Positions 12,850 through 33,021 of a stretch of DNA of 64,000 nucleotides are shown here, piece after piece. Position numbers and translations under genes: made by a program. Location of the stretch: contig NZ_CP071696.1 of assembly GCF_018024495.1 (NCBI RefSeq), positions 1,860,001 through 1,924,000 of the forward strand, given 5' to 3'. Under the pieces are notes generated by a model. The model was not told the origin of the DNA. It made no database searches and was given only the letters and a program-made list of their open reading frames with translations. Positions within the stretch are counted from its first letter, which is position 1; the number at the start of each line of letters is the position of its first letter. The DNA is from Agromyces archimandritae (GTDB taxonomy: Bacteria > Actinomycetota > Actinomycetes > Actinomycetales > Microbacteriaceae).

Positions 12850-12855
12850 CGGAGG

Positions 12856-15845: not shown

Positions 15846-15869
15846 CGCCGTGCGGCAGCGCCCGCGGCC

Positions 15870-17437: not shown

Positions 17438-17501
17438 CGTCCCCCCTCGGTCGGCGCCCCCACGCCGTCGTTCTCAGGTAACCGGGTGGGGCGGTGGCGC
17501 G

Positions 17502-18758
17502 TCAAGAGGGGAGGGGTTCCCAGAGGGCCGAGACGGGCAATCCCCAGAGCCGTTCGGCGAAGCGGTACCCGGTCCTGCCGGTGTTCAGCACGATTCCCCC
17601 GGCGAAGCGATCGCCGAGCCGGTCGCGCAGCGTTCTCAGTCCCGAGAAGTGGTCGGGCCGGAACGTCTCGCCCGCCTTCACCTCGAGACCGAGGATCTGC
17701 CCGTCGGCGAACTCGAGCACGAGATCGACTTCATGACCGTCGCGGGTTCGGTAATGCGAGAGCTCGTACTCCTCGCTCGACCACGACCGTTGCTTCAGGA
17801 GCTCCCCGACGACGAACCCTTCGAGGAGGCCGCCCAGATGGTTCGCGGTGCCGTCGATCGGGAGCAGCTGTGCCGCGGTGACGTGCGAGAGGCGGGCGGC
17901 AAGTCCCGAATCCGCGACCGACGCCTTCACTCGGCCGACTTCACGGCTCGTCAGGTTCGCGGTGAACGGGCGAAGCACGTCTATGAGATAGAGGGTCTGG
18001 ATCGCATCGAGGTACGCCGTGATCGAGGTCGGAGGGATGCCGGCCGCCCGCGCGAGGCGAGCCTTCACGAGTTCGCCGGCCTGGTTCGCGGCGAGGAGAC
18101 GGAGCAGGGAGCCGAGTCGGCTCGGATCGGTGATGCCGGCGACTTCGGGGGCGTCGCGGGTCGCGAGCCGTTCCGCGTACGCATCGAACCAGGCGCCGCG
18201 GAGTTTCAGGGTGAGCCCCTGGACGTTCGCGTAACCGCCGGTGACGATCATCTGCGCGTATGCGGCGCGGTCGACTTCCGTCGTCACGTCGGAGAACGGG
18301 ATGCCCGCGCGGAAGCGTGCGGCGAAATCATCGTGGACGCCGCGGATCTCGCCTTGCGAGAACGGTCGGAGGCGAACGGTGACCGCCCGACCCGCGAGAC
18401 TGTCGCTCTGGCCGGCGAGTCGGAGGAGGTCGCTCGAGCCGGTGAGCAGAAAACGCCCCGGCCTGCGGTCGCGATCGATGGCGGCCTTGATCGAGAGGGT
18501 CAGGGATGGCAGGCGCTGCACCTCGTCGATGACGGTGAGGCCGTCGGGGTGCTGATTGACGAACCCTTCCGGGTCTTCGACGGCGGCGGCCCGGGTCCGT
18601 TCATCGTCGAGGGTGAAGAACCGGGCGTTGCGGGTGGCGCCGAGCTCCGCGGCGAGCGTCGACTTGCCGACCTGGCGTGCGCCCTGGATGACGGTTGCCG
18701 GGAAGGCGTCGAGGACCTCCTCGGCGAAGCCGGTGATGTGGCGCTTGATGAGCTCCAT
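17502..18758 (-). CDS. AAA_14/DUF4143 family ATPase
   Basis: A 418-residue protein of a large prokaryotic family. The N-terminal P-loop ATPase has Walker A GARQVGKST (26-34), Walker B LTVIDEVQR and sensor FLLTGSSDLL. The C-terminal DUF4143 region has a PD-(D/E)XK-like core: HEVDLVLEF followed by LGLEVKAG, with the D, E and K of the fold present. The family is often found near toxin-antitoxin modules, and hicAB lies next door in the opposite direction; the biological role is unproven. TAGGGT 6 nt before the ATG (minus strand) suggests leaderless transcription. Confidence 0.88.
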   Translation of the reverse strand: MELIKRHITGFAEEVLDAFPATVIQGARQVGKSTLAAELGATRNARFFTLDDERTRAAAVEDPEGFVNQHPDGLTVIDEVQRLPSLTLSIKAAIDRDRRPGRFLLTGSSDLLRLAGQSDSLAGRAVTVRLRPFSQGEIRGVHDDFAARFRAGIPFSDVTTEVDRAAYAQMIVTGGYANVQGLTLKLRGAWFDAYAERLATRDAPEVAGITDPSRLGSLLRLLAANQAGELVKARLARAAGIPPTSITAYLDAIQTLYLIDVLRPFTANLTSREVGRVKASVADSGLAARLSHVTAAQLLPIDGTANHLGGLLEGFVVGELLKQRSWSSEEYELSHYRTRDGHEVDLVLEFADGQILGLEVKAGETFRPDHFSGLRTLRDRLGDRFAGGIVLNTGRTGYRFAERLWGLPVSALWEPLPS

Positions 18759-18764
18759 GGGGCC

Positions 18765-18770
18765 ACCCTA
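18765..18770 (-). promoter_or_regulatory. -10 box of the DUF4143 ATPase gene
   Basis: TAGGGT on the minus strand ends 6 nt before the ATG at 18758, giving a likely leaderless mRNA. Confidence 0.4.
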
Positions 18771-18775
18771 TCCGC

Positions 18776-18857
18776 CCGTCGTAGTTTCGCGGGGCGTCCG
18801 TCGTAGATTTGCCAGGGGGTGTTCGGTAGGTTCGCGGAGTGTTCGTCGTAGCTTTGC
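18776..18857. repeat. CGTCGTAG repeat cluster, left of hicAB
   Basis: Four degenerate direct repeats of ~20-25 bp: CGTCGTAG then TTTCGCGGGG, CGTCGTAG then ATTTGCCAGGGGG, CGGTAGGTTCGCGGAG, and CGTCGTAG then CTTTGCCAGGGGG. The same two-unit pattern recurs to the right of hicAB at 19505-19549, so the toxin-antitoxin pair is bracketed by direct repeats. Confidence 0.8.
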
Positions 18858-18879
18858 CAGGGGGTGATCCCGATTGCAG

Positions 18880-18897
18880 TATCAATAGTGATATCAT
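18880..18897. promoter_or_regulatory. Inverted repeats and -10 box at the hicAB promoter
   Basis: TATCA-ATAG-TGATA (18880-18893) and the overlapping perfect palindrome TGATATCA (18889-18896) form a probable HicB operator. TATCAT (18892-18897) fits a -10 box 6 nt before the hicA ATG, so the transcript may be leaderless. Confidence 0.6.
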
Positions 18898-18903
18898 CTT
18901 TGC

Positions 18904-19155
18904 ATGCCGGGGATTGCGACGCTGCTGAGCAAGATGCGGAACAGTCCGAAGGGAATCCGGTTCGCGGACCTCGCGAAGGTATGCGATCACTACTTCGGAG
19001 AACCCCGGCAGCAGGGCACCTCGCATCGCGTGTATCGGATGCCGTGGAGAGGCGACCCGCGAGTGAACATCCAGAACGACCACGGATCGGCGAAGCCTTA
19101 CCAGGTACGGCAGGTGCTCGCCGCGATCGACAAGCTGGAAGGAGAGGCATCGTGA
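18904..19155 (+). CDS. hicA: HicA-family mRNA interferase toxin
   Basis: An 83-residue protein with the double-stranded RNA-binding-like HicA fold. The pattern RFADLAKVCDHYFGEPRQ, then GTSHRVYRMPWRGDPRVNI and KPYQVRQVLAAIDKLE is typical, with the catalytic His in GTSHRVYR. HicA degrades mRNA and is neutralised by HicB. It overlaps the following hicB by 4 nt (GTGA). The gene order toxin before antitoxin is standard for hicAB. Confidence 0.9.
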   Translation: MPGIATLLSKMRNSPKGIRFADLAKVCDHYFGEPRQQGTSHRVYRMPWRGDPRVNIQNDHGSAKPYQVRQVLAAIDKLEGEAS

Positions 19156-19475
19156 ACGCAGATCACTACACCTACCGGGTGCGCTGGTCGGCCGAGGACG
19201 ACGAGTTCGTCGGCACGGTCGCCGAATTCCCCTCGCTGTCCTGGCTCGCCGAGGATCAGGCAGAAGCGTTCCAGGGCATCCGGGACCTCGTGGCGGAAGT
19301 GCTCGACGACATGCGCGACTCGGGGGAGATGCCGCCCGAGGCGCTGGCGGATCGTTCCTACTCGGGCAAGTTCATGGTGCGCGTGCCCCCCGAGGTGCAC
19401 CGGCGGCTCGCGATCGATGCGGCCGAGCAGCAGGTCTCGCTCAATCGGCTCGCGGCGAGCCGGCTCGCGGGGTGA
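19152..19475 (+). CDS. hicB: HicB-family antitoxin
   Basis: A 107-residue antitoxin. The N-terminal RNase H-like HicB fold is visible as YTYRVRWSAEDDEFVGTVAE, FPSLSWLAEDQAEAFQGIRD, and the C-terminal ribbon-helix-helix segment as KFMVRVPPEVHRRLAIDAAE, QQVSLNRLAASRLAG. The latter should bind the palindromes before hicA. Start is GTG at 19152 inside hicA, giving translational coupling. Confidence 0.92.
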   Translation: MNADHYTYRVRWSAEDDEFVGTVAEFPSLSWLAEDQAEAFQGIRDLVAEVLDDMRDSGEMPPEALADRSYSGKFMVRVPPEVHRRLAIDAAEQQVSLNRLAASRLAG

Positions 19476-19504
19476 GTCGGCGCGTCGTGCTCGCGGCGCC
19501 GATG

Positions 19505-19549
19505 CGAGCCCGTCGTAGGTTCGCGGGGCGTTCGTCGTAGATTTGCCAG
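19505..19549. repeat. CGTCGTAG repeat cluster, right of hicAB
   Basis: CCGTCGTAGGTTCGCGGGG followed by CGTTCGTCGTAGATTTGCCAGG, matching the two unit types on the left side of hicAB. The remaining part of the 256-base gap holds only the promoter of the next operon. Confidence 0.78.
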
Positions 19550-19672
19550 GCTGCGGAGCAGGCGGGTCAGCGGCCGGCGGCGGCCTCGCCGGTGAGGGCG
19601 GGGGCGGATGCCGGGCGGGCGCTGCGCTTGCGGCGGAGTTCACGGCGGCGGCCTCATCGTGCTCGCAATCCA

Positions 19673-19701
19673 TTGACCGCCCACCCCGTCCGGGGTACGT
19701 T
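19673..19701 (+). promoter_or_regulatory. Promoter of the polyketide operon
   Basis: TTGACC (-35, 19673-19678) and TACGTT (-10, 19696-19701) are separated by 17 bp, a good housekeeping promoter. The start site would be near 19708, leaving a ~24-nt leader with the ribosome binding site GGGGGG (19721-19726) before the GTG at 19732. Confidence 0.65.
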
Positions 19702-19731
19702 CCAGACAGGCGCACGAGTCGGGGGGACCAC

Positions 19732-21215
19732 GTGAGCGAACAGACGGCGACGGCGAAACGGAACGCCATGGGGGCGCTCATCGCGACGTGCATCTCGGCG
19801 CTCGTCGTGAACGCCAACACCTCGGCGGTGGCCATCCTCATCCCCGCGATCGCCGACGACACCGGCACCCCGGCGACCACCCTGCAATGGGCCGTCACCG
19901 GCTACTCCCTCGTCGGCGCCGCCGTCATCGTGACCGCCGGATCCCTCGGCGACGTCTTCGGCCGCCGCAAGATCTTCCTCGGCGGGCTCGTGCTCTTCGT
20001 CGGCTCCTGCGTGCTCATCGCCCTCGCCCAGGACGGCATCACCGTCATCGCCGGCCGCTGCATCCAGGGCGCCGCCGGCGCCACGATCCTCGCCTGCGGC
20101 ATGAGCCTCATCTCCGCGGCGAACACCGGCAAAGCCCAACTGCGCGCCGTGACCCTCTGGGGTGCGGCCTCGGCCGTCGGCGCGGCCGCAGGCCCCCTCG
20201 TCGGCGGCCTGCTGGCATCCACCCTCGGCTGGCAGGGACTGTTCTGGATCGACGCCGCCATCGGCGCCGCCTGCATCCCCGTCGCCCTCGCCGCCGTCGC
20301 CGAATCCAACGACCCCGACCGGCCCCGATCCATCGACTTCGCCGGCTCCGTGCTCATCGCCGCCGTGCTCGCTCCGCTCATCTTCGCCCTCACCAACGGC
20401 GACGTGTGGGGCTGGCTGTCGCTGCCGACGCTGCTCTGCTTCGCGATCACCGTCGCCGCCGCCATCGGATTCGTGCTCGTCGAACGACGCGTGAAGGCCC
20501 CGCTCATCGACCTGAAACTGCTGAAGAACCGGGTGCTCGTCGGCGCGACCCTGTCGATCCTGCTCGGCGCCGGCACCATCAACGCGATCATGTACGTCGT
20601 CAGCCGTACTTCCAAGACCCCGACGCGCTCGGCATGGACTCCTTCCAGGCGGGCCTGGCGACCCTGCCCGTCGCGGCCGCCGCCGTAGTGCTCTCGCCGC
20701 TCATCACCCCGATCGTCGCCAAGATCGGGGCACGCACCACGATCGGCGTCGGGTTCGTCATCATGACGGCAGCGTGCATCGTGCTCGCCTTCGTGCACGC
20801 CGGTTGGGGGTACGCCCTCTTCGTCGTGCCCCTCATCGCGCTCGCCGTCGGCATGAGCCTGCAGAACGGACCGTGCTCGTCGATCTCGACCTCCTGCGTC
20901 GAACCCCGCCAGGTCGCCGCCGCCTCCGGCATCTCGAACATGGCCCGCTACGTCGGCTCGGCCGTGATGACCGCCATCATCGCCTCCGTGTACGCCGGCG
21001 TCGACATGCGCCGCACGAATGCCGGCTGGGCCGACGCCGACGCGCTCGCCGCCGCATTCTCCTGGTCGATGATCTCGATGGGCATCTGGTGCGCCCTCGG
21101 CATCACCATGGTCTGGCTCTTCGGCCGCCTCAAGCCGAAGGCGCCCACCGAACTCGTGGTCGTGCAGGCGGCCGCCGGCACCACGCACACGATCACCCCG
21201 CCGGAGGGGCGCTGA
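19732..21215 (+). pseudogene. MFS exporter (DHA2/EmrB-QacA type), frameshifted
   Basis: An approximately 495-residue 14-helix drug/metabolite exporter split over two frames. The first part (GTG 19732 to ~20606) has LQWAVTGYSLVGAAVIVTAG, SLGDVFGRRKIFLGG (motif A) and AGRCIQGAAGATILACG. At ~20605-20606 one base is missing: the continuation [20 protein letters not shown] is in the next frame (TAC at 20607), running to the stop at 21213. As given, the first frame would end at 20688 after 32 unrelated residues. Either an indel in the sequence or a broken gene. It would export the product of the adjoining polyketide pathway; its stop overlaps the PKS start by 1 nt. Confidence 0.85.
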
Positions 21216-22448
21216 TGGCCGCACTGCTCCGAGGCATCGCCACCGTCGTCCCGCCGACGGTGCTCGTGCAGGACGAGGTGCGCGATGTGTTCCGCGACCA
21301 GCCGGGCCTCGGGCGCCTCGCCCAGCGCATCGTGACGACCGCGTTCGACGCCTCCGGCATCCGCACCCGCCGCACCGTGCTCGCCGAACTCGGCGGCGAG
21401 GCGCCGGGCGAACCCCTCTTCTTCGATCGCGCAATCGGGCTGCTGCTCTCGCCCGGAACCGCCGCCCGCAACGACCTCTACGCCGAACACGCGACCCGGA
21501 TGTACGCGGACGCCGCGCGGGCCGCGATCGCGGCGACCCCCGGCATCCACCCGGGCGATCTGACCCACATCATCACCGTGTCGTGCACCGGCTTCTATGC
21601 GCCCGGCCCCGACTTCATGCTCGTGCGGGAGCTCGGGCTGGACTCCTCGGTGCAGCGCTTCCACCTCGGATTCATGGGCTGCTACGCGTCGATGCCCGCC
21701 CTCCGGCTCGCCGCGCAGCTCGTCGCCGCAGACCCCGACGCCGTCGTCCTCGTCGCGAGCGCCGAACTCTGCACCCTGCACCTGCGCAGCTCCGAGGACC
21801 CCGACTCGATCGTCGCCGCATCCCTCTTCGCCGACGGGGCCGCGGCCGGCATCGTCACCGCCCGCCCGCCGGAACCCGGCGAGAAAGCCCTGCAGCTCGA
21901 CCGCTTCGAGACCCGCATCACGCCCGTCGGCGAGGGCGACATGGCCTGGCGCATCGGCGACCACGGCTTCGAGATGGTGCTCTCGAACGCGGTGCCGGCG
22001 ATCATCGACGAATACATCACCCCCGCCCTCGAACCGCTGTTCGCCGGCGAACCGGCGCTCGCCGCGGCCCTCGCCGACACGCGTGCGGCCGACGAGGTGC
22101 GGCACTGGGCGATCCACCCCGGCGGGCGCAGCATCCTCGACCGCGTCGAGTCGACGCTCGCGCTGCGGCCCGAGCAGCTCGCACCGCCGCGCGCGGTGCT
22201 GCGCGACTACGGCAACATGTCGAGCGCGACCGTGCTCTTCGTGCTGCGGGCGGTGCTCGACGGGAGCGGCGGCGGCGAGGGCTCGGGTGCGGTGGATGCC
22301 GCGGGCGACCGCGGGTGCGGATGCCGGGGCGGCGCCCGACGCCGCCGTGCCGCGGGCGCGCCCCGTCGCCGACGGCGACCGCGTGGCGGCGATGGCCTTC
22401 GGGCCGGGTCTCACCGTCGAGACGGGGCTCATGACGGTGCGGGCGTGA
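21215..22448 (+). pseudogene. Type III polyketide synthase, frameshifted near its C-terminus
   Basis: A chalcone-synthase-like enzyme that extends an acyl-CoA starter with malonyl-CoA. The Cys-His-Asn triad is intact: Cys in [15 protein letters not shown], His in [11 protein letters not shown], Asn in [11 protein letters not shown]. Around 22308-22311 an extra base shifts the frame. The true end, [20 protein letters not shown] then MTVRA, is in the +1 frame and stops at 22448, whereas the original frame runs on into the methyltransferase gene as a spurious fusion. Active-site residues all precede the lesion, but the C-terminal strands that close the thiolase fold would be lost. Substrate and product are unknown. 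Confidence 0.88.
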
Positions 22449-23692
22449 GCGAGCCGGCGGGGCGGCGGCGGCCGGGCGCATCCGCCGGCCGCCTCGCCCG
22501 CACGGCGAGTCTCGCAATGCGGGCCGTGGATGCCGTGTGGCCGCCGCTCCGCACGCGCGACGCCGACGCGGTCGAACTCATGGACGCGGCCGACGCCGAT
22601 CCGGCCGCCCTCGAACGCACCTACGCGCGCTTCGGCCTCGTCAACGCGTTCGTCTCCGGCTGGGGCGCCGTGTACCGGCGGGAGATCCGCCCCCGGCTCG
22701 CGGCGCGCCAGGGCATCCGCCCGGCGCAGCCCGCGCGCGGCATCCACCCGGCGCACCCCGCGCGGCCGCCGCACCACGCGCACCCGGCACACCCCGCGCA
22801 CTCGGCGCACCACGGTTCCGGAGATCGCCACGGTTCCGGATGGATGCCGCTCGATTCATCCGAATCTGTGGCGATCTCCGAATCGGTGGCGGCCCGAGGG
22901 CCGGGCCGGCCAGGCCGGTCTGGTCCGAGCGTCGGTCAGGCGGTGCCCGACGGCATCCATCCCGCGCACCCCGTGCTCGGCATCCACCCCGCGGACCCCG
23001 CGCACCCGGCGCACCCGGCGCACCACGGTTCCGGAGATCGCCACGGTTCCGGATGGATACCGCTCGATTCATCCGAATCCGTGGCGATCTCCGAATCGGC
23101 GGCGGGGCGGGATCGCCCGTCGAACCCATCGGCGTGCCAGGGCATCCACCCGGGCACGACGCCCCTGCGACTGCTCGACATCGGCACCGGCGGCGGCGAC
23201 CTGCCCCGCGTTCTTGCCCGGCGCGCAGCCGCCGACGGATTCGCCCTCGATATCGTCGCCGCGGACCCCGACTCGCGTGCGATCGCCTGGGCTGAACGGC
23301 ATCCGGCGCCCGGCGTCGCCTACCGCCGCGTCACGAGCCGCGAGCTCGCCGACGCCGGCGAAACCTTCGACATCGTCATCTCGAACCATGTGCTGCACCA
23401 CCTCGACGCGGCCGCGCTCGGGGCGCTGCTCGCCGAATCCGAGCGCCTCGTGCGCCCCGGCGGCGTGATCGTGCACGCCGACATCGCCCGCAGCCGCTGG
23501 GGGCACCTCGCGTTCGCGGCGGCGACGGCCCCGTTCGAGGCGACGCTGCTCGCGGGCTCGTTCATCCGCGCCGACGGGCTCACCTCCATCCGGCGCAGCT
23601 TCACTCCCGCCGAGCTCGCCGCCGTGCTGCCGGCGGGCTGGCGGGTCCGGGCCGGGTTCCCGTCACGGCTCGAGGCGGTGCGGGATGCCTGA
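22445..23692 (+). CDS. Class I SAM-dependent methyltransferase with two palindromic-element insertions
   Basis: A 415-residue protein. The N-terminal helix-rich part (residues 1-90: [34 protein letters not shown]) and the C-terminal Rossmann domain ([38 protein letters not shown]) are those of a methyltransferase of ~265 residues that accompanies type III PKS genes. Between them ~148 residues (90-237) are inserted, rich in HPAHPAH and containing two near-identical copies of [10 protein letters not shown] and [10 protein letters not shown], which are translated copies of the 80-bp palindromic element. The frame is preserved. Start GTG at 22445 overlaps the PKS stop by 4 nt. It probably methylates the polyketide. 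Confidence 0.82.
22810..22892. repeat. 80-bp nested palindrome, copy B, inside the 22445 gene
   Basis: CCACGGTTCCGGAGATCGCC and GGCGATCTCCGAATCGGTGG form the outer arms; the inner pair is TTCCGGATGG and TCATCCGAATC. Nearly identical to copy C 213 bp downstream. Confidence 0.88.
23023..23104. repeat. 80-bp nested palindrome, copy C, inside the 22445 gene
   Basis: Same arms as copy B, including the CGCTCGATTCATCCGAATC right inner arm. B and C lie in a ~213-bp imperfect tandem duplication that also carries the GGCATCCACCC/CGCACCCGG-rich flank. Confidence 0.88.
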
Positions 23693-24811
23693 GCCGGGCC
23701 CGAGCTGCGACGTCGCGATCGTCGGCGGCGGGCCGGTCGGGCTGCTCGCCGGCTGCCTGCTCGCCGGGCACGGCCTCGAGATCGCCGTCATCGAACGCCG
23801 CACGACGCTGAGCCCGCACTCGCGTGCGATCGGCATCCACCCGCCGGGGTTCGCCGCGCTCGCCGCCGTCGGCCTCGGCGAGGCGGTGGATGCCGCAGCA
23901 GCCCCCATCCGCTCCGGCGCCGTCGTCTGCCGCGGTCGGCGCCTCGGCGGCATCGGCTTCTCCGGACCCGTGCGGTCGCTGCCGCAACGCGAAACCGAAC
24001 GCCTGCTCGCCGAACGCCTCGCCGACATCGCCCCGGGCGCCCTGCGCCGCGGCCACGACGTCAGGCTCGTGCGGGAACGCGGTGCCGGCGTCGTGCTCGC
24101 CGGCACCGGCGGGCTCCACCTCGGCGCCCGCTACGCGGTGATCGCCGACGGAGTCCGCAGCCGCTCGCGGGCGCAGCTCGGCATCGGCTGGCGCCGTCGC
24201 CCCGGCTCCGGGCACTACGTCATGGCCGACGGGCCCGACCTCGGCAGCGTGCGCGAGGAGGCGATCATCGCCCTCGAACCCGACGGCGTCGTCGAATCGT
24301 TCCCGCTGCCCGGGGGCCGGCGCCGCTGGGTCGTCCGGCTCGACGCGCCGTGGGCGGGCGGCGAGGGAGGGCGGGTGCGGATGCCCTGGCACGCCTCGTC
24401 CGGGAGCGAACCGGCATCCACCCGCACCTCGACGAACCGAGCGCCTTCACCGTCCACCAGCACCTCGCCGCCGGCTTCGCGCGCGGCCGCATCGCCCTCC
24501 TCGGCGACGCCGCGCACGAGCTCAGCCCCATCGGCGGGCAGGGCATGAACCTCGGGTGGATGGATGCCCTGGCGCTCTGCCGCGCCGTGCTCGACGGCCT
24601 CGCTACGGCCGACCCCGAACCCTTCGGCGTCTCTGCGCGCGCCCGCCGCGCCGCCGCCGCCCGGGCGATCCGGCAGGCGGCGTTCAACACCGCGATGGGC
24701 GCTCCCGTGCACGGGGCGGCGCTGCACGCCCGGAACGCGCTCGTGCGCGCGCTCGCCGCCCCCGGTGCGCGCAGCCGCCTCGCCGACACCTTCGCGATGC
24801 GGCGCCTGTAG
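23685..24811 (+). pseudogene. FAD-dependent monooxygenase/oxidoreductase, frameshifted
   Basis: A flavoprotein of the PHBH/UbiH class (~375 residues when repaired). The Rossmann motif is CDVAIVGGGPVGLLAGCLL; the second FAD motif ALLGDAAHELSPIGGQGMNL is in another frame. The shift lies in a G-rich stretch at ~24361-24375 where one base is missing: the frame from 23685 would end at 24548 with unrelated sequence, while GADALARLVRERTGIHPHLD onward is read from the neighbouring frame to the stop at 24811. It overlaps the methyltransferase by 8 nt. It presumably hydroxylates or oxidises the polyketide. Confidence 0.83.
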
Positions 24812-24938
24812 CGCGGGCGGCACCGCGCGTGCAGCCTCGCCGCGGGTGCGGACCCCGGGCGGCACCGCCCCCGGGCATCCATCGACCCGCCGCACGCGCT
24901 TCGCTAGGCTGACCGTGACGGAACGATCTGGGGGGATC

Positions 24939-25340
24939 ATGTTCGGATCAGGGCAGCCGGGGCGCCGCGCCGGCATCCGCACCGCCGCCGTGCTGGCCGG
25001 GGCGTTCGCGCTCGCCGGCCTCGCCGGTTGCGCGGCGGAGTCGCAGCAGCACAACGTCGATCCGCCGGTCATCGTCGATCTCAACGAGGTCGACGGCACG
25101 ACCGTCGAGGTGCAGCGGGGCGGCGCCGTCGACCTCATCGGCGACGACGAAACGTACACCGCCTGGGAGGCCGACATCGCCGACCCCGCGATCGTGACGT
25201 TCCTGCCCGGCCGCGACGACGGCAGCGCGCAGTACAACCCGGGCCTCACGGCCGAGTCCGTCGGCACGACCGACGTCACCCTCGACAACGCCGACTCGGG
25301 CGAGACGGTGACGTTCACGGTCGAGGTCACCGAGCACTGA
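24939..25340 (+). CDS. Small lipoprotein with Ig-like fold
   Basis: A 133-residue lipoprotein: signal sequence with lipobox LAGLAGC (Cys near residue 28), then ~100 acidic residues with alternating strands (VIVDLNEVDGTTVEVQRGGA, DVTLDNADSGETVTFTVEVT) resembling a bacterial Ig-like domain. TAGGCT at 24904-24909 may be the -10 box and GGGGGG precedes the ATG. No family name can be assigned with certainty; location outside the membrane is well supported. Confidence 0.75.
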   Translation: MFGSGQPGRRAGIRTAAVLAGAFALAGLAGCAAESQQHNVDPPVIVDLNEVDGTTVEVQRGGAVDLIGDDETYTAWEADIADPAIVTFLPGRDDGSAQYNPGLTAESVGTTDVTLDNADSGETVTFTVEVTEH

Positions 25341-25365
25341 CGGCGAGTGGATGCCGCGGGGCGCC

Positions 25366-26097
25366 CTACGCGCCGGCGGCGGCCCCCGGCACGGTGCGCC
25401 GGGCGCCCGGGTGCGAGGCGGCATCCACACCCGAGGTCAGCATTGCAGCGAGCTCGTCGACCGTATCGGCCACGGCGATCGCGTCATGCGCCTCGATCGG
25501 CGACCCGTACCCCCACGCGACGAGGATCGTCGGAACCTCGTTCGCGGATGCGCCGACGACGTCGTACCCGCGGTCGCCGACCATGACCGGCCGGCTCGTG
25601 TCGACCTTCGCGGCGCGCAGCCGGGCGAGGGCGTCGGAGACGATGTCGGCTTTCGTGGAGCGCGTCTCGTCCTCGCTCGCACCCGCGATCACGGCGAACC
25701 GCGACGCCAGGCCGAGGTGTTCGAGGATGCGCCGCGCCATCGGCTCGGGCTTGCTCGTGGCGACCGCGAGCGGAATGCCGGCGTCGGCGAGCGCCCCGAG
25801 CAGCTCCGGCAGGCCCGCGAACGCCGGAGCATGCATCGCGACCTCGCCGTAGTGGTCGCGGTAGATGCTGAGCGCGTTCCAGGCATCCACATCGGTGAAG
25901 CCGCCCTGCATGCGCAGCGCCTCCAGCAGCGGCGGCCCGACGTACGAGCGCAGGATCTCCTCCGACGGAACCGCCGCCCCCATCGCCTCGAAGGTGTGCG
26001 CGAGCGACTCGACGATGCCCGCAGCCGAATCGACGATCGTGCCGTCGAGGTCGAAGAGGACGACGCTCCACGCGCGGCCGGGTCCGAGGGGCTTCAC
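25366..26097 (-). CDS. HAD-superfamily hydrolase (phosphoglycolate phosphatase-like)
   Basis: A 243-residue HAD subfamily IA phosphatase. Motif I is VVLFDLDGTIVDS (nucleophile D16, acid D18), motif II the Ser/Thr of LAVATSKPEP, motif III K in STKADIVSDAL and motif IV MVGDRGYDVVGA. The helical cap (residues ~30-95) is of the Gph type. The likely substrate class is small phosphorylated metabolites. Start is GTG at 26097; TACGAT 7 nt before it (minus strand) suggests a leaderless mRNA. The C-terminal ~20 residues are low-complexity. Confidence 0.88.
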   Translation of the reverse strand: MKPLGPGRAWSVVLFDLDGTIVDSAAGIVESLAHTFEAMGAAVPSEEILRSYVGPPLLEALRMQGGFTDVDAWNALSIYRDHYGEVAMHAPAFAGLPELLGALADAGIPLAVATSKPEPMARRILEHLGLASRFAVIAGASEDETRSTKADIVSDALARLRAAKVDTSRPVMVGDRGYDVVGASANEVPTILVAWGYGSPIEAHDAIAVADTVDELAAMLTSGVDAASHPGARRTVPGAAAGA

Positions 26098-26104
26098 GCC
26101 CCCA

Positions 26105-26110
26105 ATCGTA
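26105..26110 (-). promoter_or_regulatory. -10 box of the HAD phosphatase gene
   Basis: TACGAT on the minus strand ends 7 nt before the GTG start at 26097. Confidence 0.38.
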
Positions 26111-26170
26111 GGCGTTGCTGGACGGGGAGGGCCGTGGAGCAGGTGCGTGGATGCTTCGGGGCGGCCGCGT

Positions 26171-26286
26171 GGCCGGGGGTGGAGTCGCGTGCGCGGTTCG
26201 CCGGGGACGCCGCGAAACGCGACGCGCCGCCCGGCTGGGGCTGCCGCCTTTCGCGAGGACGCGTGTCGCGGGGCGCCACGCGGACC
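26171..26286. repeat. ~116-bp dispersed repeat, copy 1
   Basis: Begins GGCCGGGGGTGGAGTCGCGT and contains CGCCCGGCTGGGGCTGCCGC and GGACGCGTGTCGCGGGG, ending at GCGGACC. A second copy with the same order of blocks is at 30124-30239, on the same strand. No gene is visible here (gap 26098-26389). Confidence 0.78.
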
Positions 26287-26389
26287 TCGCGCACGACGCT
26301 CCACGAGGCGGCGACTCGCTCGCCGCCGAACCCGGCCATCCACCCGGCCGACCGCGATGCGCTGGGCCGGGACCGGCGCAACAGTCAAC

Positions 26390-27085
26390 TCAGAACAGCG
26401 TCGGCACCCCGCTGTCGACGCCGCGCATGTCGTCGTAGTCGAGGACGACGCAGCGGATGCCGCGGTCTTCGGCGAGGGTGCGGGCCTGCGGTTTGATCTC
26501 CTGCGCGGCGAAGACGCCCTGCACCGGGGCGAGCAGGGGGTCGCGGTTCATGAGTTCGAGGTAGCGGGTGAGCTGTTCGACGCCGTCGATGTCGCCGCGG
26601 CGTTTCAGTTCGACGGCGACGCTGGCGCCGTCGGCATCGGTCGCGAGGATGTCGACGGGACCGATGGCGGTCATGTATTCGCGGCGCACGAGACGGTAGC
26701 CGTCGCCGAGGCGTTCGATCTGCTCGGCGAGCAGCTTCTGCAGATGCGACTCGACGCCGTCCTTCTGCAGCCCGGGGTCGACGCCGAGTTCGTGCTCGGA
26801 ATCGTGCAGCACCTCGTGGATCGAGACGGTGAGCCGGTCGGCGGTCTTCTTGTGGGTCACGGTCCACACGGCATCCACACCCGCCTCCCGGGCGTCGTCA
26901 TCGGGGACGCCGACCTCGAGGGTGCAGGGCGGGCTCATCCAGTTCAGCGGCTTGTAACTGCCGCCGTCGGAGTGGATGAGGAGGCTGCCGTCGCCCTTGA
27001 CCATGAGCAGGCGGGTCGCGAGCGGCAGGTGCGCCGACAGCCGGCCGGCGTAGTCGACGGAGCAACGGGCGATGACGAGACGCAC
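26390..27085 (-). CDS. nucS: Mismatch-specific endonuclease NucS
   Basis: A 231-residue NucS (EndoMS), the enzyme of the non-canonical mismatch repair found in actinobacteria and archaea that lack MutS/MutL. The N-terminal DNA-binding domain ([40 protein letters not shown]) and the C-terminal RecB-like nuclease are both complete; the catalytic signature is [20 protein letters not shown] with D and E-x-K. Length agrees with the mycobacterial protein. It ends with LF, preceded by GVDSGVPT, reminiscent of the C-terminal beta-clamp-binding tail. GTG start; TACACT lies 6 nt upstream. Confidence 0.96.
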
Positions 27086-27091
27086 CGTTCG

Positions 27092-27097
27092 AGTGTA
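27092..27097 (-). promoter_or_regulatory. -10 box of nucS
   Basis: TACACT on the minus strand ends 6 nt before the GTG start at 27085; leaderless transcription is likely. Confidence 0.4.
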
Positions 27098-27132
27098 GTT
27101 GCCGCGACGAGTGGATGCCGTGGGGCGGCGGA

Positions 27133-28365
27133 TCAGCGCGCGGCGCGTTCCCGGGTCGCCGGTGCGGCCAGCCCGGCCAGCACCATGAGGCCGAGGATGA
27201 CGAGCAGGGCGTTCAGGATGCCGAAGTGCTCGCCGAGGAAGCCGAGCAGCGGCGGGCCCGCGAGGAACGCGAAATAGCCGATGATCGCGACCGCGCTCAC
27301 GCGCGCCGCCGAGTCCTTCGGGTCGTCGGCCGCGGCCGACATGCCGACGGGGAAGCCGAGCGAGGCGCCGAGGCCCCACAGCACGATCCCGACGACGGCG
27401 AGCCACACGGCCCCCGGCACGAGGCTCGGCCCCCAGATGAACAGGGAGAGGCCGATGATGCCGAGCACCGCCGAGATCTGCAGGATCCGCACCCTCCCGA
27501 AGCGGTCGATCACCGGGCCGCCGGCGACGCGTCCGACGGTCATCGCGGTGACGAACACCCCGAACATGACGGCGCCTTCGGTGTTCGACAGGCCGTGCCC
27601 GTCGACGGCGGCGAGGGCGATCCAGTCGTTCGCGGAGCCTTCGGCGAACGCCATCCCGAGCATGACGACGCCGATGAGCAGCAGTCGCACGTCGCCCCAG
27701 ACGCGCAGGCCGTCGACGAAGCGTCGGCGCCACGGCTTGCGGGGCGAACCGGCATCCACTTCGTCGCCGACGGCCGCGCGAAGCGGCACGAACCGCACCG
27801 CGACGACGATGCCGGCCACGATGAGCACGGCGATCGCCGAGGCATGCCAGAGCACCGGGATGCCGGCAGCCGACGCGCCGGCGCCGACGGCGGCGCCCGT
27901 GACCGTGCCGAGGCTGAAGAAGGCGTGCATGAGCGGCATCAGCGTTTTGCCGATCTCGCGCTCGGCGGCCGCGCCTTCGACGTTCATCATGACGTCGACG
28001 GCGCCGTTGCCGAAGCCGAACGCGGCCATGCCGACGATGAGCACGGCCACCGAACCGAACACGGTCGAGCCCACGCCGACGACGACGAGCCCGCAGGCGA
28101 CGAGGATGAGGCAGAGGACCATGCCGCGGTGCGCGCCGACGCGCGCGAGGAGCCAGGGGGCGGCGATGAGGCCGAGCACCGAGCCGGCCGACATGCCGAG
28201 GATGACGATGCCGACGACGTCGAGGGCGAGGCCGGCGTCGTCGCGGACGGCGGGGATCCGCGACACCCAGGTGGCCATGCTGAGCCCGCTGAGGAAGAAG
28301 ATCGCGAACACGGCGTTGCGCCACGAGGTCAGCTCGCGTCGTGCGCGGGTGGGGGTGTCGGTCAT
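27133..28365 (-). CDS. Major facilitator superfamily transporter
   Basis: A 410-residue, 12-helix MFS protein. It opens with [20 protein letters not shown] and has [37 protein letters not shown] and a central cytoplasmic loop after residue ~195. The pattern GNGAxDVxMN with HAxxSLGxxxG resembles the FucP/YbjJ-like subfamily of sugar or drug transporters. The substrate is unknown. The ATG follows a gap rich in palindromic repeats; no clear ribosome binding site is seen. Confidence 0.88.
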
Positions 28366-28549
28366 GAGTGGATGCCCTCGGTCGGTCGTGCTGGGCGCGC
28401 ATCGTCGGCGCGATCGCTCGACGGGCCGGCACGCCGGTGCGATCGAATCGATTCGACAACGCTATGCGATGCGCGCCGCCCGGCGCAACGGGCGCGCGGG
28501 CGGGGTCCGCATCCCGCACGCTGAACTTCGCATTCGCATCCGCCCGCCG

Positions 28550-28940
28550 CCACGGATTCGGAGATCGCCACGGTTCCGGACGTGGCACGCGTATCCATCC
28601 GATTCGGTGGCGATCTCCGGAACGGTGGCGCCGGCGCTCGGCGCGCCCGCGAGCCGGAGCACGGCAGTGCAACTGCGCCCGTCAACCACGGATCCGGAGA
28701 TCGCCACGGTTCCGGACGTGGGCACGCCTATCCATCCGATTCGGTGGCGATCTCCGGAACGGTGGCGCCGGCGCTCGGCGCGCCCGCGCGCCCGCGAGCG
28801 GCAGCGCAAACTGCGCCCACTACGATTCCGGAGCGGCAGCGCGGCTCCGCCCGCCCGCCACGGATCCGGGGATCGCCACGGTTCCGGACGTGCGCACGCG
28901 CATCCATCCGATTCGGTGGTTTTCTCCGAATCTGCGGCGG
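28550..28940. repeat. Three intergenic copies (D, E, F) of the 80-bp nested palindrome
   Basis: Copies D (28550-28630), E (28686-28767) and F (28858-28940). Each starts CCACGGATYCGG, has GATCGCCACGGTTCCGGACG and a right arm TCCATCCGATTCGGTGG. D and E are followed by the same CCGGCGCTCGGCGCGCCCGC flank, so D-E is a ~136-bp tandem duplication. F is degenerate in its right arm (GGTGGTTTTCTCCGAA). The 675-base gap 28366-29040 holds no convincing gene. Confidence 0.88.
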
Positions 28941-29040
28941 GCCGCACGGCCCACTGGCGGGCGGCACGGCCACGGGCGGGCAGTGCGGCCCCAGCGGCGG
29001 GCGCGGGGCTGCAGCCCGCCGGGCGCGGCCCCGACTGCGC

Positions 29041-29802
29041 TCAGCGCCCCTTCTCGCCGACGCGCGCCGCGAGCGTCGGCGGCAGCACCCGCGTGAGCCC
29101 GACGAGCAGCTTGTATCGCAGCGACGGAACCGACACGGGCTTGCCGCGCGCCGCATCCCGCAGCCCCTCGGCGACGACCGTTCGTGCATCCAGCCACATC
29201 CACGCGGGGATCCCCTCCTGCCCCGGCGGCAGACCGAGCCGTTCGTGGAAGTTCGTGTGCGTGTATCCCGGGCACACCGCCGTGACGGTGACGCCGCGCG
29301 GGCCGTAGTACCCGTTCGCCCAGCGGCTGAAGCCGATGAGCCACCCCTTGCAGGCGCCGTACGTCGAGCGCGGGATGAAGCCGGCGACGGAGGCGACGTT
29401 CACGATGCGGCCGCGTCCGCGCGCGAGCATCGCCCCGAGCGCGGCGTGCATGAGCCGCATGGGGGCTTCGATGTGCACGCGCAGGTGGCGCACCTCGTCG
29501 TCGATGTCGTTGGCGGCGAAGTCGAGCGGCAGCCCGAAGCCGGCGTTGTTCACGAGCAGGTCGATCGGATGCTCGCGGTCGGCGACGCGGGCTTCGACGC
29601 GGGCGAGCTCATCGGGTTTCACGAGGTCGGCCGGCAGCACTTCGGTGCGGATGCCGTGGCGCGACCGCACCTCCTCGGCGACGGCGTCGAGGGCGTCGCG
29701 GTCGCGGCCGACGAGCACGAGGTCGGCGCCGGTGGCGGCGAGGTTGCGGGCGAACTCGACGCCGAGTCCGGAACTGGCACCGGTGATGAGGGCGGTTGGC
29801 AT
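29041..29802 (-). CDS. Short-chain dehydrogenase/reductase
   Basis: A 253-residue classical SDR. Cofactor motif TGASSGLG (7-14) and NNAG (85-88), catalytic Ser138 in VNVASVAGF, Tyr148 and Lys152 in STYGACKGW. R33/D34 after beta-2 (VGRDRDAL) favours NADP(H). The helical C-terminus (LRYKLLVGLTRVLPPTLAAR) resembles SDRs that act on lipophilic substrates at the membrane (YqjQ/DltE-like). TATGCT 6 nt before the ATG suggests leaderless transcription. Substrate unknown. Confidence 0.92.
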   Translation of the reverse strand: MPTALITGASSGLGVEFARNLAATGADLVLVGRDRDALDAVAEEVRSRHGIRTEVLPADLVKPDELARVEARVADREHPIDLLVNNAGFGLPLDFAANDIDDEVRHLRVHIEAPMRLMHAALGAMLARGRGRIVNVASVAGFIPRSTYGACKGWLIGFSRWANGYYGPRGVTVTAVCPGYTHTNFHERLGLPPGQEGIPAWMWLDARTVVAEGLRDAARGKPVSVPSLRYKLLVGLTRVLPPTLAARVGEKGR

Positions 29803-29808
29803 GCGCAC

Positions 29809-29814
29809 AGCATA
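29809..29814 (-). promoter_or_regulatory. -10 box of the SDR gene
   Basis: TATGCT on the minus strand ends 6 nt before the ATG at 29802. Confidence 0.4.
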
Positions 29815-29820
29815 GGGGGC

Positions 29821-30112
29821 GGGCGCCTGGCGAGTGGATGCCGGTGGGCGCGGCCGGGGTGGGAGTGCCGGTTTCCTGTGGGAGTGCCGACTTCCCGGTA
29901 CTCCGGCGGGAGGTCGGCACTTCTCGGGTGCCGGTGCCGGGCGCGGGGTCGGGCGGGCGCCTGGCGAGTGGATGCCGGTGGGCGCGGCCGGGGTAGGAGC
30001 GCCGGTTTCCTGTGGGAGTGCCGACTTCCCGGCACTCCGGCGGGAGGTCGGCACTTCTCGGGTGCCGGTGCCGGCCGCGGGGTCGGGTGCGCGGCGAGTG
30101 GATGCCGGTGGG
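29821..30112. repeat. 134-bp tandem duplication containing GTGCCGAC hairpins
   Basis: Two near-identical units (29821-29954 and 29955-~30083) plus the beginning of a third (GCGGCGAGTGGATGCCGGTG, ~30090). Each unit contains GGCGAGTGGATGCCGGTGGG, a GGAGTGCCGGTTTCC motif and a hairpin in which GTGCCGACTTCCCGG pairs with a downstream GGAGGTCGGCAC. The AGTGCCGACTTCC motif recurs at 62.7-62.8 kb. Confidence 0.85.
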
Positions 30113-30123
30113 CGCTGGCCGGC

Positions 30124-30239
30124 GGCCCTGGGGGTGGAGCCGCGTGGGTGGTCTGCCGGGGGCGGGTGACGCGATGCGTCGCCCGGCTGGGGGTGCCGCT
30201 TTTCGGGGGACGCGTGTCGCGGGGGCGCCGCGCGGACCC
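30124..30239. repeat. ~116-bp dispersed repeat, copy 2
   Basis: Matches 26171-26286 block by block: GGGGGTGGAGCCGCGTG, then CGCCCGGCTGGGGGTGCCGC, then GGACGCGTGTCGCGGGGG and GCGCGGACC. It ends ~65 bp before the lacI-type gene, close to the TACAAT -10 candidate at 30248-30253. Confidence 0.75.
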
Positions 30240-30303
30240 CGTGCGGACCTACAATCGGCGTGTCGGCGTCCGCCGGCGGCCGTCGTCCGAGGAGCGCCCG
30301 AGC

Positions 30304-31542
30304 ATGTGCCCAGCGTCCGCGCCCCGCCACCCGACGCTCGCCGACGTCGCCGCCCGCGCCGGGGTATCCGCCTCCACCGCGTCGCTCGCGTTCAGCGGCT
30401 CGGGTCCGGTCAGCGATGCGACGAAGGAACGGGTGCTCGCCGCCGCCGAGGAGCTCGGCTACGCCGGGCCGGATCCGCGCGCCCGGTCGCTCCGCCGCGG
30501 CCGCAGCGGCATCGTCGGCGTCGTGCTCGAAGAACGCGTGCGCGACGCCTTCCTCGACCCGGTGAAGATCCGGATGCTCGACGGGATCGCCGAGGGCATC
30601 GCCCCGCTCGGCGCCGGTCTGCTGCTCCTGCCGGACACCGGCAACACCGCCGCCGGCAACACGGACACCGGCAACACCGCCGCCGGCAACACGGCCGCCG
30701 GCAACACGGCCGCCGGCGACACGGCCACCGGCAACACCGCCACCGGCAACACGGCCACCGGCAACACGGCCGCCGGCAACACCGCCGCCGGCGACACCGG
30801 AACGGCCAAGGCCGGCATCGCGGGCCTCGACGCCGCAGTCTCGGTCGAGGACGCCCCGGTCGACGCGGTCGTCCTCATCGGCTGCAGCCCCCGGCTCGGC
30901 GACACGGTCGCCGCTCTGGCCAGACGCGGCATCCCGACGGTCGCCGTCGAGGGGGCGGCGGGCGCCGGCATCCCCGAGATCTCGCTCGACAACCGCGACG
31001 CCACTCGCCGCGGCGCCGAGCATCTGCGGGGGCTCGGGCACGAACGGGTCGCGACGGTGACCCTGCCGATGGATGCCGCACGCACCCGCGGCCCGGTGAC
31101 GCCCGAGACCGTGGCCGCCGCCACGGGCGACACGGCACGCGAACGTCTCCTCGGCGCCCGCGACGTGTATCCGGAGATCGGCGGCCGCATCGCCGCCGCC
31201 AGCTCGATCGAAGAGGGCATCCTGGCCGGCCGGGAACTCCTCGCCGACCCCGCCGAGCGCCCGACGGCGATCATCGCGCAGAGCGATCTGCTCGCCGCCG
31301 GCGTCATCATGGCGGCCGAGGAGCTCGGCCTGTCCGTTCCGGGCGAGCTCAGCGTCCTCGGATTCGACGGCATCCGCGTCGACGGTCTGCAGCACGATCT
31401 CACGACGCTCGTGCAGCCGAGCGTCGCCAAGGGGCGGGCGGCCGGCGAGTGCGTGGTGCGGATGCTCGGCGGCGAGGAGCCGGAGTCGGTGCGGTTCACG
31501 AGCGTGCTGCACATCGGCGACACGACGGCCCCCGCCCGGTAG
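30304..31542 (+). CDS. LacI-family transcriptional regulator with pentapeptide minisatellite
   Basis: A 412-residue regulator. The N-terminal helix-turn-helix and hinge are canonical (TLADVAARAGVSASTASLAF, RARSLRRGRSGIVGVV), followed by a periplasmic-binding-like ligand domain with SVLGFDGIRVDGL and LTTLVQPSVAKGRAAGE. Residues 111-165 are eleven consecutive XXGNT-type pentapeptides (AAGNT, ATGNT, DTGNT, AAGDT) inserted after the first beta-alpha unit of the ligand domain; normal length would be ~345-355. TACAAT at 30248-30253 is the best -10. No target operon is obvious next to it; the MATE gene is convergent. The ligand is unknown. Confidence 0.88.
   Translation: MCPASAPRHPTLADVAARAGVSASTASLAFSGSGPVSDATKERVLAAAEELGYAGPDPRARSLRRGRSGIVGVVLEERVRDAFLDPVKIRMLDGIAEGIAPLGAGLLLLPDTGNTAAGNTDTGNTAAGNTAAGNTAAGDTATGNTATGNTATGNTAAGNTAAGDTGTAKAGIAGLDAAVSVEDAPVDAVVLIGCSPRLGDTVAALARRGIPTVAVEGAAGAGIPEISLDNRDATRRGAEHLRGLGHERVATVTLPMDAARTRGPVTPETVAAATGDTARERLLGARDVYPEIGGRIAAASSIEEGILAGRELLADPAERPTAIIAQSDLLAAGVIMAAEELGLSVPGELSVLGFDGIRVDGLQHDLTTLVQPSVAKGRAAGECVVRMLGGEEPESVRFTSVLHIGDTTAPAR
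30634..30798. repeat. 15-bp coding minisatellite, 11 units
   Basis: Eleven in-frame units of GCCGCCGGCAACACG type with GCC/ACC and AAC/GAC variants inside the LacI-family gene. Being a multiple of three, copy-number change would alter length without breaking the frame. Confidence 0.92.
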
Positions 31543-31550
31543 GCGCGCGT

Positions 31551-31650
31551 CACGACCGGCTCGGCACGGGGCCCGACCACCCGGGCCGGTCACGACCGGC
31601 TCGGCTGGGCCCGACCACCCGGGCCGGTCACGACCGGCACGGAGCCGACC
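31551..31650. repeat. ~39-bp direct repeats between lacI-type and MATE genes
   Basis: GTCACGACCGGCTCGGC followed by GGGCCCGACCACCCGGGCCG occurs twice, with a third shortened copy (GGTCACGACCGGCACGGAGC). CCCGACCACCCGGG and GGCCGGTCACGACCGG contain short dyads, so the array may also act as a terminator for the two convergent genes. Confidence 0.78.
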
Positions 31651-31668
31651 GCCCCGGCTCCCGCCCCT

Positions 31669-33021
31669 CTACCGCACCGCCCCCGTCACGATCCATCGCG
31701 AGCCGCGGGCGCGGAGGCCGAGTGTGACCGCGCGCGCCCCCAGGTACCCGAGTGCGAACGCGGCCATGAGCCATCCGAGGGCGGCGGCCCCGTCGGCGTC
31801 TCTCGCCGCCAACGCGACGGCGAGGGCGAGCGGCACGAAGACGGCGAGGTTCACGACCCCAGTCCAGGCGAGGTAGCGGGCGTCGCCGGCGCCGATGAGC
31901 ACGCCGTCGAGCACGAACACGAGCCCGCCGAGCGGGGCGGAGATGCCGAGGACGACGAGTGCGGGCGGCAGCAGCCCGGCGACGTCGGCGGAGGAGGTGA
32001 ACAGCGACGGCAGCACCCAGGCGAGGCCGGCGACGATCGCGCCGAGCACGACCCCGGCGCCCACGCCCCACAGCAGGCAGCGCCGCAGCACGAGCTGCAC
32101 CCGTTCGACGTCGCCCGCGCCGAGCCATCGGCCGATCAGCGCCTGCGCGGCGATCGCGAGCGCGTCGAGGGCGAAACCGAGGGTCATGTACAGCGACATC
32201 GCGATCTGGAAGGCGGCGAGTTCGGCCGAGCCGAGCACGGTCGCCGACCAGGTCGCGAGCAGGAACGCGGCGCGCAGGCTCGCCGTGCGCAGGAACAGCC
32301 AGCCGCCCGAGTGGATGCCGCGGAGCACCCCCGCGTGATGCGGCATCCACGATGCGCCCGCCGCCGCCGCATGCCGCCCGATCACGACGAGGTAGACGGC
32401 GACCATGCCCCACTGGGCGACGACGGTGCCGATGGCCGAGCCGCCGATGCCGAGCCCGAGCACGTAGATGAAGAGGTAGTTGAGCAGGATGTTCGCGCCG
32501 AAGCCGCCGCCGGCGACGAAGAGCGGCGTGCGCGTGTCCTGCAGCCCGCGCAGGAGGCCGGTGGCGGCGAAGACGATGAGCATCGCCGGAAGCCCCGCCA
32601 TCGAGATCGTCAGGTAGGTGCCCGCTTCGGCGGCGACGTCCGCGGCGGGGCCGAAGGCATCCACGAGCCACGGTGCGGCCGCCCACCCGGCCAGCCCGAG
32701 CACGACGCCGATGCCGAGGGCGAGCCAGAGCCCGTCGATGCCGGAGGAGATCGCGCCGCGACGGTCGCCGGCGCCGAGCAGCCGTGCGACCGCGGGGGTG
32801 GTCGAGTAGGCGAGGAACACCATGAGCCCGATGATGGTCTGCAGCACGGCGCTCGCGAGGCCGAGGCCGGCCAGTTGCGCGGTGCCGAGGTGGCCGACCA
32901 TCGCGGTGTCGGCGAGGAGGAACAGGGGTTCGGCGACGAGCGCGCCGAACGCCGGCAGCGCCAGGCGCAGGATCTCGCGATCCACGCCGCGGCGCAGGGT
33001 CTGGTCGGCAGGGGTACTCAT
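31669..33021 (-). CDS. MATE family efflux transporter (DinF-like)
   Basis: A 450-residue, 12-helix protein. The two homologous halves begin ILRLALPAFGALVAEPLFLL, ADTAMVGHLGTAQLAGLGLA and, in the second half, AFLLATWSATVLGSAELAAF. AFQIAMSLYMTLGFALDALA and QALIGRWLGAG are typical of the DinF branch of MATE exporters, which use Na+ or H+ to extrude cationic drugs or metabolites. The substrate is not predictable. The start ATG at 33021 gives the usual length. Confidence 0.93.
   Translation of the reverse strand: MSTPADQTLRRGVDREILRLALPAFGALVAEPLFLLADTAMVGHLGTAQLAGLGLASAVLQTIIGLMVFLAYSTTPAVARLLGAGDRRGAISSGIDGLWLALGIGVVLGLAGWAAAPWLVDAFGPAADVAAEAGTYLTISMAGLPAMLIVFAATGLLRGLQDTRTPLFVAGGGFGANILLNYLFIYVLGLGIGGSAIGTVVAQWGMVAVYLVVIGRHAAAAGASWMPHHAGVLRGIHSGGWLFLRTASLRAAFLLATWSATVLGSAELAAFQIAMSLYMTLGFALDALAIAAQALIGRWLGAGDVERVQLVLRRCLLWGVGAGVVLGAIVAGLAWVLPSLFTSSADVAGLLPPALVVLGISAPLGGLVFVLDGVLIGAGDARYLAWTGVVNLAVFVPLALAVALAARDADGAAALGWLMAAFALGYLGARAVTLGLRARGSRWIVTGAVR

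Follow-up and report, generated by a model that had tools for sequence, protein, structure and literature searches.

Palindromic elements in the window

The window, a 64,000-nt stretch of the Agromyces archimandritae chromosome, carries six copies of an 84-bp palindrome, all given on the + strand. Copy A (nt 13796–13879) lies in a methyltransferase ORF (nt 12856–14376, + strand) and has one additional right-hand unit 3′ of the element, to about nt 13903. Copies B (nt 22808–22891) and C (nt 23021–23104) are in frame within the ORF of nt 21215–23692; their spacing is 213 bp, and C is a tandem duplicate. Copies D (nt 28548–28630), E (nt 28684–28767) and F (nt 28856–28939) are extragenic, and the right arm of F has partly decayed. 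The original prediction had described six copies, three of them inside genes. All six were found, with an offset of 1–2 bases and in one common 84-bp layout, and A does lie in one ORF and B and C in another. When folded as single strands, five of the six copies fold much better than shuffled sequence (z −4.1 to −8.1), and copy F with its decayed arm does not (z −1.3). A known RNA family was rejected, as a scan of nt 12000–32000 with the Rfam 15 covariance models gave a single sub-threshold match (E 0.66).

The element, termed T1, is built of four 18–20-nt units placed around a short loop, one pair direct and the other inverted. Its layout is CGCCAC-box-CGGAGAT / CGCCAC-box-CGGATGGAT, followed by the loop and the mirror image. 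In the A. archimandritae genome the unit reads CGCCAC, a 5-nt box and CGGA.., and the length of the element is near-constant at 83–85 nt. GTGG is found at the outer end of the T1 copies of this genome, and it is not constant across the T1 family or in other palindrome types; REP palindromes are described with an adjoining GT(A/G)G head in the available part of PMC2817692.

T1 family across the genome

A covariance model built from 24 copies locates T1 at 42 places in the 3.45-Mb genome (150 first-look candidates scored), 41 of them strong (best E no higher than 5e-10) and the last one weak. A blastn search with a hand-typed mixture agrees with this result, and a local search added one further degenerate copy. 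The 42 places form 19 clusters, none of which falls in the first 1.06 Mb (C1:1-1065000, 31%) of the chromosome. The family is thus dispersed, and absence from the rest of the genome, which had been named beforehand as a reason to give up the idea of a mobile element, was not observed.

The same architecture is present in other Agromyces, in Microbacterium and in Leucobacter. In data with one genome per species the T1 core pattern occurs at 120 loci at least, and those with names are almost all from these three genera; a number of the remaining rows are probably chance matches or contaminants. Hits in G015 and G027 likewise have the look of chance palindromes. Loci L096, L097, L113, L133 and L163 were excluded from the counts of box similarity, placement and stop distance given below, and the contigs named Stenotrophomonas (L120, L123, L179, L195) were retained in them.

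In the A. archimandritae genome, loop identity is 0.82 within clusters versus 0.54 between clusters (39 copies of exactly 84 nt), and between clusters the arms, at 0.81, are more conserved than the loops, at 0.54. The likeness of loops within clusters indicates that tandem duplication made the local sets B–C and D–E–F, and that the dispersal is older. From the higher conservation of the arms, individual copies would seem to be under maintenance or of great age and not to be recent duplicates. Simple local duplication, the other explanation foreseen at the outset, accounts for B–C and D–E–F, which are local duplicates; it is not the whole story for a family spread over 19 clusters, and a purely local origin was rejected on the 42 places found genome-wide.

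Copies within reading frames

The ORF around copy A encodes a 506-residue protein resembling the 16S rRNA guanine-1207 methyltransferase. Its homologues have 372–402 residues among the 120 matches listed, compared with 506 here, and the segment containing copy A is absent from all ten homologues that were aligned.

The ORF around copies B and C (nt 21215–23692) joins a type III PKS and a class I methyltransferase in one frame of 825 residues, with no intervening stop. In the methyltransferase part (nt 22490–23692, + strand), residues 77–221 approximately are unmatched in orthologues. The insert, which comprises B, C and the spacer repeats, covers about 148 codons (approximately nt 22712–23155, + strand, both limits being set by where orthologue matches end). 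The host protein has a match in 59 of the 60 genomes of the genus, A. archimandritae included. In the other 58, the matches listed either start no earlier than query residue 222 or stop no later than residue 76, and in the orthologues with both parts listed the two parts are at most 16 bases apart. The translations from L320, L322, L326, L328 and L330 give the uninterrupted protein. Both inserts, that with A and that with B and C, directly precede the glycine-rich motif of the methyltransferase domain.

The comparison of homologues with and without the element, which the original prediction had proposed, therefore places A, B and C as in-frame inserts missing from homologues. The opposite expectation, that orthologues would hold the same segment as ancestral protein sequence, was rejected, since the homologues of both host genes are without the insert.

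Genomic placement and pairing of the arms

Among 164 T1 copies from this genome and the pattern loci, 13 lie within called genes, the coding fraction being 0.854. There are 57 in convergent gaps, 77 in same-direction gaps, eight in divergent gaps and nine at locus edges. Genes were called with a plain codon-score script, so a single gene or gap assignment behind these counts can be wrong. Divergent gaps make up the largest share of sequence among the gap classes, yet contain only these eight of the 164 copies. The distance to the stop codon peaks at 0–25 nt (65 of 211).

The preference for sites just 3′ of stop codons (the 65 of 211) and for convergent gaps is what would be seen if the palindromes were transcription terminators or mRNA 3′-end stabilisers spread by local tandem duplication. 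We regard such a role as highly improbable: the variable boxes of this genome pair less than shuffled ones, some copies sit inside reading frames, the length is near-constant at 83–85 nt with sequence conserved on both arms, and the elements are linked to a protein gene (see below).

The boxes of opposite arms pair more rarely in the A. archimandritae genome than after shuffling among copies, and with one copy taken per cluster a pairing as low was reached in 14 of 2000 shuffles. This contradicts the earlier impression that the variation of the loop often keeps pairing. At box columns 7–11 and 25–29 the copies look as if perfect palindromes were avoided. Across species the two arms do covary; for 73 diverse elements the covariation score was reached in 0 of 500 shuffles, and the count of arm pairs changed on both sides in 37 of 500. 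An RNA hairpin kept by pairing in this genome was rejected, covariation being seen across species only. The four boxes of one element are also mutually alike in all six pairings (z 9.4–13.7 against dealt-out boxes; 127 elements), a likeness that is largely a species-consensus effect. Direct box pairs are alike as well, which base pairing does not explain and which points to repeated recognition by a protein.

A companion gene between ctaB and ctaA

Clustering of the genes next to T1 elements, carried out with no prior functional idea, yielded one family in 16 element-bearing loci, located no more than 400 bp from an element in 15 of them. Under the strict pattern, elements are present on both sides of this companion gene in L079, L087, L108, L123 and L142. 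Taken alone the clustering is a lead, because the loci had been chosen for carrying elements. In A. archimandritae the gene is at C1:3399244-3400071, between ctaB and ctaA, with two T1 copies on each side, and the DUF559/AbiEi-like gene at L079:4245-5072 is flanked by four T1 copies. The relative orientation of flanking copies is hardly meaningful, since the copies are near-symmetric. The neighbouring genes were named from the heme o synthase (ctaB) and COX15-CtaA (ctaA) models, both above cut-off. The companion occupies the ctaB–ctaA position in six other T1 Agromyces genomes examined (in G002 as a remnant) and also in another six loci whose stretch includes one cta gene or more. Besides the ctaB–ctaA region, no second gene family was found to recur close to elements at many loci, most neighbours being unannotated.

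Four contigs assigned to Stenotrophomonas maltophilia P13 (L120, L123, L179 and L195) are short and carry Microbacterium-like elements, L123 with ctaA/ctaB and the companion gene as well. They are probably contamination of that assembly.

The companion protein has about 275 residues, with an AbiEi-like winged helix at the N-terminus and DUF559 at the C-terminus. Among five companions, Pfam DUF559 (PF04480) is above cut-off in all five, and AbiEi_4 is above it in one and below it in two. Among ten diverse members, DUF559 is above cut-off in seven and AbiEi_4 in three. A profile of 33 companion sequences matches the solved structures 3r3p (E 0.0027) and 3hrl (E 5.7e-5). The former, a mobile intron protein, belongs to the EDxHD class, and the nuclease domain of the companion is of the Vsr/DUF559 PD-(D/E)XK type. 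In 20 aligned members E179, D205, D217 and D229 are invariant and position 215 is E or Q, with Q in the nine T1, T3a, T5a and T13 proteins and E in the other 11. The Q for E in the T1-type proteins makes their predicted cutting activity uncertain.

Between L201–L204, the companion shows 63–67% identity compared with 75–78% for ctaB/ctaA and so diverges faster than its neighbours; L206 goes against this trend, with 68% for the aligned part of the companion and 62% for ctaA. A search with one query gives at least 1709 homologues of the protein at E ≤ 1e-20.

AbiEi-like and restriction-type nuclease domains are found in conflict systems. A role in defence or self-marking, in which the palindromes would either protect DNA from the nuclease or mark it for cutting, finds some backing in PADLOC, where companions hit AbiEi models and, weakly, a homing-endonuclease model (L211 hits none), and in the several divergent gene–palindrome pairs per genome. 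This reading is very unlikely. The companion is fixed between ctaB and ctaA in T1 loci, and the scarcity of recurring neighbours noted above also argues against it. One T1 pattern gave 0 matches in viral contigs, a weak test with a single pattern, on which phage carriage of that pattern was rejected.

The companion is not the enzyme that had been expected. The original prediction likened the element to RAYT-mobilised REP sequences, and REP-type repeats are common in bacterial genomes. A flanked gene, repeat–protein coevolution and dispersed extragenic palindromes make up a syndrome like that in the available text of PMC2817692, which would suit classic REP/REPIN elements with a RAYT (Y1 HUH transposase) that had escaped detection. 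The search for PF01797, the RAYT/Y1 transposase, gave 0 matches in the A. archimandritae genome, while the control was positive in 5 of 14 genomes. The transposase was therefore rejected for this genome, and as the flanked gene is DUF559/AbiEi-like, the chance of classic REP elements is close to negligible.

Palindrome types and their cognate genes

Companion-like proteins have matches in 55 of the 60 genomes of the genus, often several per genome. From the matches listed, 87 genes were taken, 27 from loci (30 in all, less three that were partial) and 60 from further stretches; the 143 control genes are all from the A. archimandritae genome, at repeat-rich loci. A repeat common to the left and right flanks (score ≥ 30) was found at 54 of the 87 companion-type genes versus 9 of the 143 controls (p 2e-20), and palindromes on both sides (score ≥ 14) at 28 versus 6 (p 1e-8). 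A palindrome score of at least 12 on at least one side, reached by 70 of 87 companion-type genes and 69 of 143 controls, is less telling.

Different companion genes carry different palindromes. Fifteen palindrome types were distinguished by hand-made patterns drawn up after viewing the flanks. They label 59 of the 87 genes, the other 28 having no recognisable type, and 32 genes have the identical type on both sides. On the protein tree the labels require 18 changes, compared with 45.6 when shuffled, a value as low being reached in 0 of 200 shuffles (87 rows). T1, T2, T3a, T4, T10 and T3b each fall on one side of a branch, and the other eight type groups with more than one row do not. Such clustering is partly expected, since gene and flank are linked. 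Judged by these sequences, the palindrome and the companion protein co-diversify.

Beyond the genus, a class-wide search found the related protein in 40 of 118 genomes. The two flanks share a repeat (score ≥ 30) at 19 of 45 of these genes, a proportion that stands without matched controls, and clear pairs on both sides were seen at L359, L363, L364, L370, L375 and L379.

Dispersal offers a test free of the linkage between gene and flank, and dispersed copies are largely concentrated in genomes that have the cognate gene. With both strands counted and at most 75 candidates scored per genome, the six genomes with the T1 gene show 16–75 T1 matches. G020 was counted among them by protein and synteny, its flanks being unlabelled. 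Of the 54 genomes without the T1 gene, one, G072, reaches 16 matches, with 22, and seven (G002, G004, G013, G032, G033, G069 and G077) hold 4–11. The sole exception accounted for is G002, in which a remnant of the gene stands between two T1 copies.

T2, a palindrome of 65–67 bp, occurs at 72 places in 13 of the 60 genomes, the reversed-pattern control giving 0. Of the 72 places, 62 belong to the seven genomes in which a T2-flanked gene is present, and 51 of these are away from the gene. Six of the seven have copies beyond the flanking pair, the exception being G075 with its two flanking copies alone; the remaining ten places are spread over six genomes in which no gene carries the T2 label. 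In G035 the loops of T2 copies come close to randomness (0.35 versus 0.31), which points, as the T1 arms do, to copies that are kept or very old. A T2 palindrome was also seen directly upstream of the orthologue of the B/C host gene at G035:C23:371684, G017:C2:1282840 and G062:C1:2948036. The G010 palindrome (T3a) is present at about ten places in G010 and at eight in G077, two of each adjoining the gene, and three more genomes hold four places between them. Among the eight genomes that have a T3a-labelled gene, five are without a match to the G010 element.

The A. archimandritae genome also has a second palindrome family, TGCGCAATGCAGGA.., unrelated to T1. Its copies in the window (nt 12691–12778, − strand, and nt 14544–14632, + strand) stand on either side of the ORF that hosts copy A. 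This family occupies at least 59 places in the genome, five of the 59 listed lying in C1:1-1065000 (at 0.47, at 0.92 and three near 1.05 Mb), and its own DUF559/AbiEi gene (C1:2290770-2291546) lies between two copies. The genome therefore holds at least two protein–palindrome pairs, with about 42 and at least 59 copies. A third DUF559/AbiEi-like gene, L317 (C1:1087341-1088159), has no clear flanking palindrome type and is the sole tested member above the REase_MTES_1575 cut-off.

Interpretation and relation to known systems

The T1 family is real, extends genome-wide and has a companion protein newly recognised here; it behaves like REP/RAYT without the defining enzyme that was tested for. In the reading that we consider probable, T1 elements are dispersed non-autonomous palindromes, REP/RAYT-like, mobilised by an unrelated cognate protein with a winged helix and a nuclease domain. 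Binding, cleavage and mobilisation by the companion are what we infer from the findings above. The winged helix would read the repeated units of the palindrome, and the nuclease domain would cut or nick DNA at the palindrome. Repair or replication could then leave new copies elsewhere, and also in tandem nearby. Extragenic sites 3′ of genes would tolerate copies best, and occasional in-frame insertions would survive.

A search for target-site duplication found none at offsets −4 to +2 and k 2–8, with one copy taken from each of 19 clusters. The largest z was 2.6 among 42 tests, and target-site duplication was rejected in the absence of a consistent excess of flank identity in these clusters. 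This result, the arms being more conserved than the loops, and the Q for E in the nuclease motif leave room for a role as regulator or chromosome site, the main rival. The palindromes would then be binding sites kept for a regulator with a nuclease-like domain, serving as operators, as roadblocks or in organising the chromosome, with no movement and with copies left by old, ordinary duplication. The four similar units per element, the AbiEi-like winged helix and the one conserved place of the gene would also suit a regulator. It remains an unlikely reading, as the sites, unlike operators, are located 3′ of genes and keep away from divergent promoter gaps (eight copies, compared with 57 in convergent gaps), as copy number varies widely among species of the genus, and as two clusters stand inside reading frames whose homologues are without them. 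The recurrence of gene flanking on both sides with many palindrome types likewise argues against it.

The likeness to REP/RAYT and to Rickettsia palindromic elements (RPE) that was first noted stands in so far as the copies are dispersed, mostly extragenic and sometimes in frame; it fails on the RAYT, which was not found, another companion standing in its place. In the available excerpts of PMC2817692 and PMC3116915, REP/RAYT systems have a flanked gene, repeat–protein coevolution and copies abundant where the cognate gene is present, and the RAYT gene is kept in place and evolves faster than its neighbours. T1 resembles them in being made of short palindromes, mostly extragenic and some clustered, in having a gene flanked by inverted copies, in repeat–protein coevolution, in copies that largely track the gene, and in a gene that is fixed and faster evolving than its neighbours. 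It differs in its companion, an AbiEi-like winged helix with a Vsr/DUF559-type domain in place of a Y1 HUH transposase, and in size. The elements here are about 58–85 bp, with two units or long single arms, compared with 20–40 or 20–60 bp for REPs in the parts available of PMC3733652 and PMC3116915. With RPE, as far as the available text of PMC10969869 describes them, T1 shares a palindromic repeat able to sit in frame within genes. Unlike RPE it is mainly extragenic (13 of 164 in called genes), so that the in-frame state is not the common one, it measures 84 bp versus about 150 bp (PMC10969869), and a cognate gene is present.

The nuclease domain is distantly related to that of EDxHD/Vsr-like homing endonucleases (3r3p) and of DUF559 proteins (3hrl). 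In contrast to the EDxHD homing endonucleases, no intron or intein was seen, dispersed palindromes flank the gene, and there is an extra AbiEi-like N-terminal domain. Like MITEs, the elements are short, multicopy stretches of inverted-repeat DNA that encode no gene of their own; unlike MITEs, the linked gene is outside the transposase families by Pfam, and target-site duplication was not found.

The pairing of palindrome and nuclease appears to represent a type of genomic repeat system not described before. A description of DUF559 proteins with palindromic or mobile elements was not found in openly licensed PubMed Central text, and an earlier description elsewhere may exist. The wider reading, held with a little less assurance than the one for T1 but still thought likelier than its opposite, is that actinomycetes harbor a large unrecognised class of REP-like mobile palindromes, every family with a nuclease of its own to run it, and with several independent pairs of winged-helix/PD-(D/E)XK nuclease and palindrome per genome that co-diversify. 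The described REP movers, as far as the available sources go, are one enzyme class. If the present reading is true, a second, unrelated protein class with the REP syndrome would represent a convergent solution, and a role would be suggested for many of the proteins that currently go under the names DUF559 or AbiEi antitoxin. The many natural protein–palindrome pairs would also be useful for reading DNA recognition by the winged helix and the nuclease.

The window contains other repeats besides these. Palindromes of the form GGTCGAGTAG..GTATCGAGACC and tandem arrays are found at nt 4237–4402, 15590–15763 and 47719–48193, and tandem and palindromic repeats of the GGAGTGCCG type, with 32-nt and 134-nt units, at nt 29817–30084 and 62463–62824.
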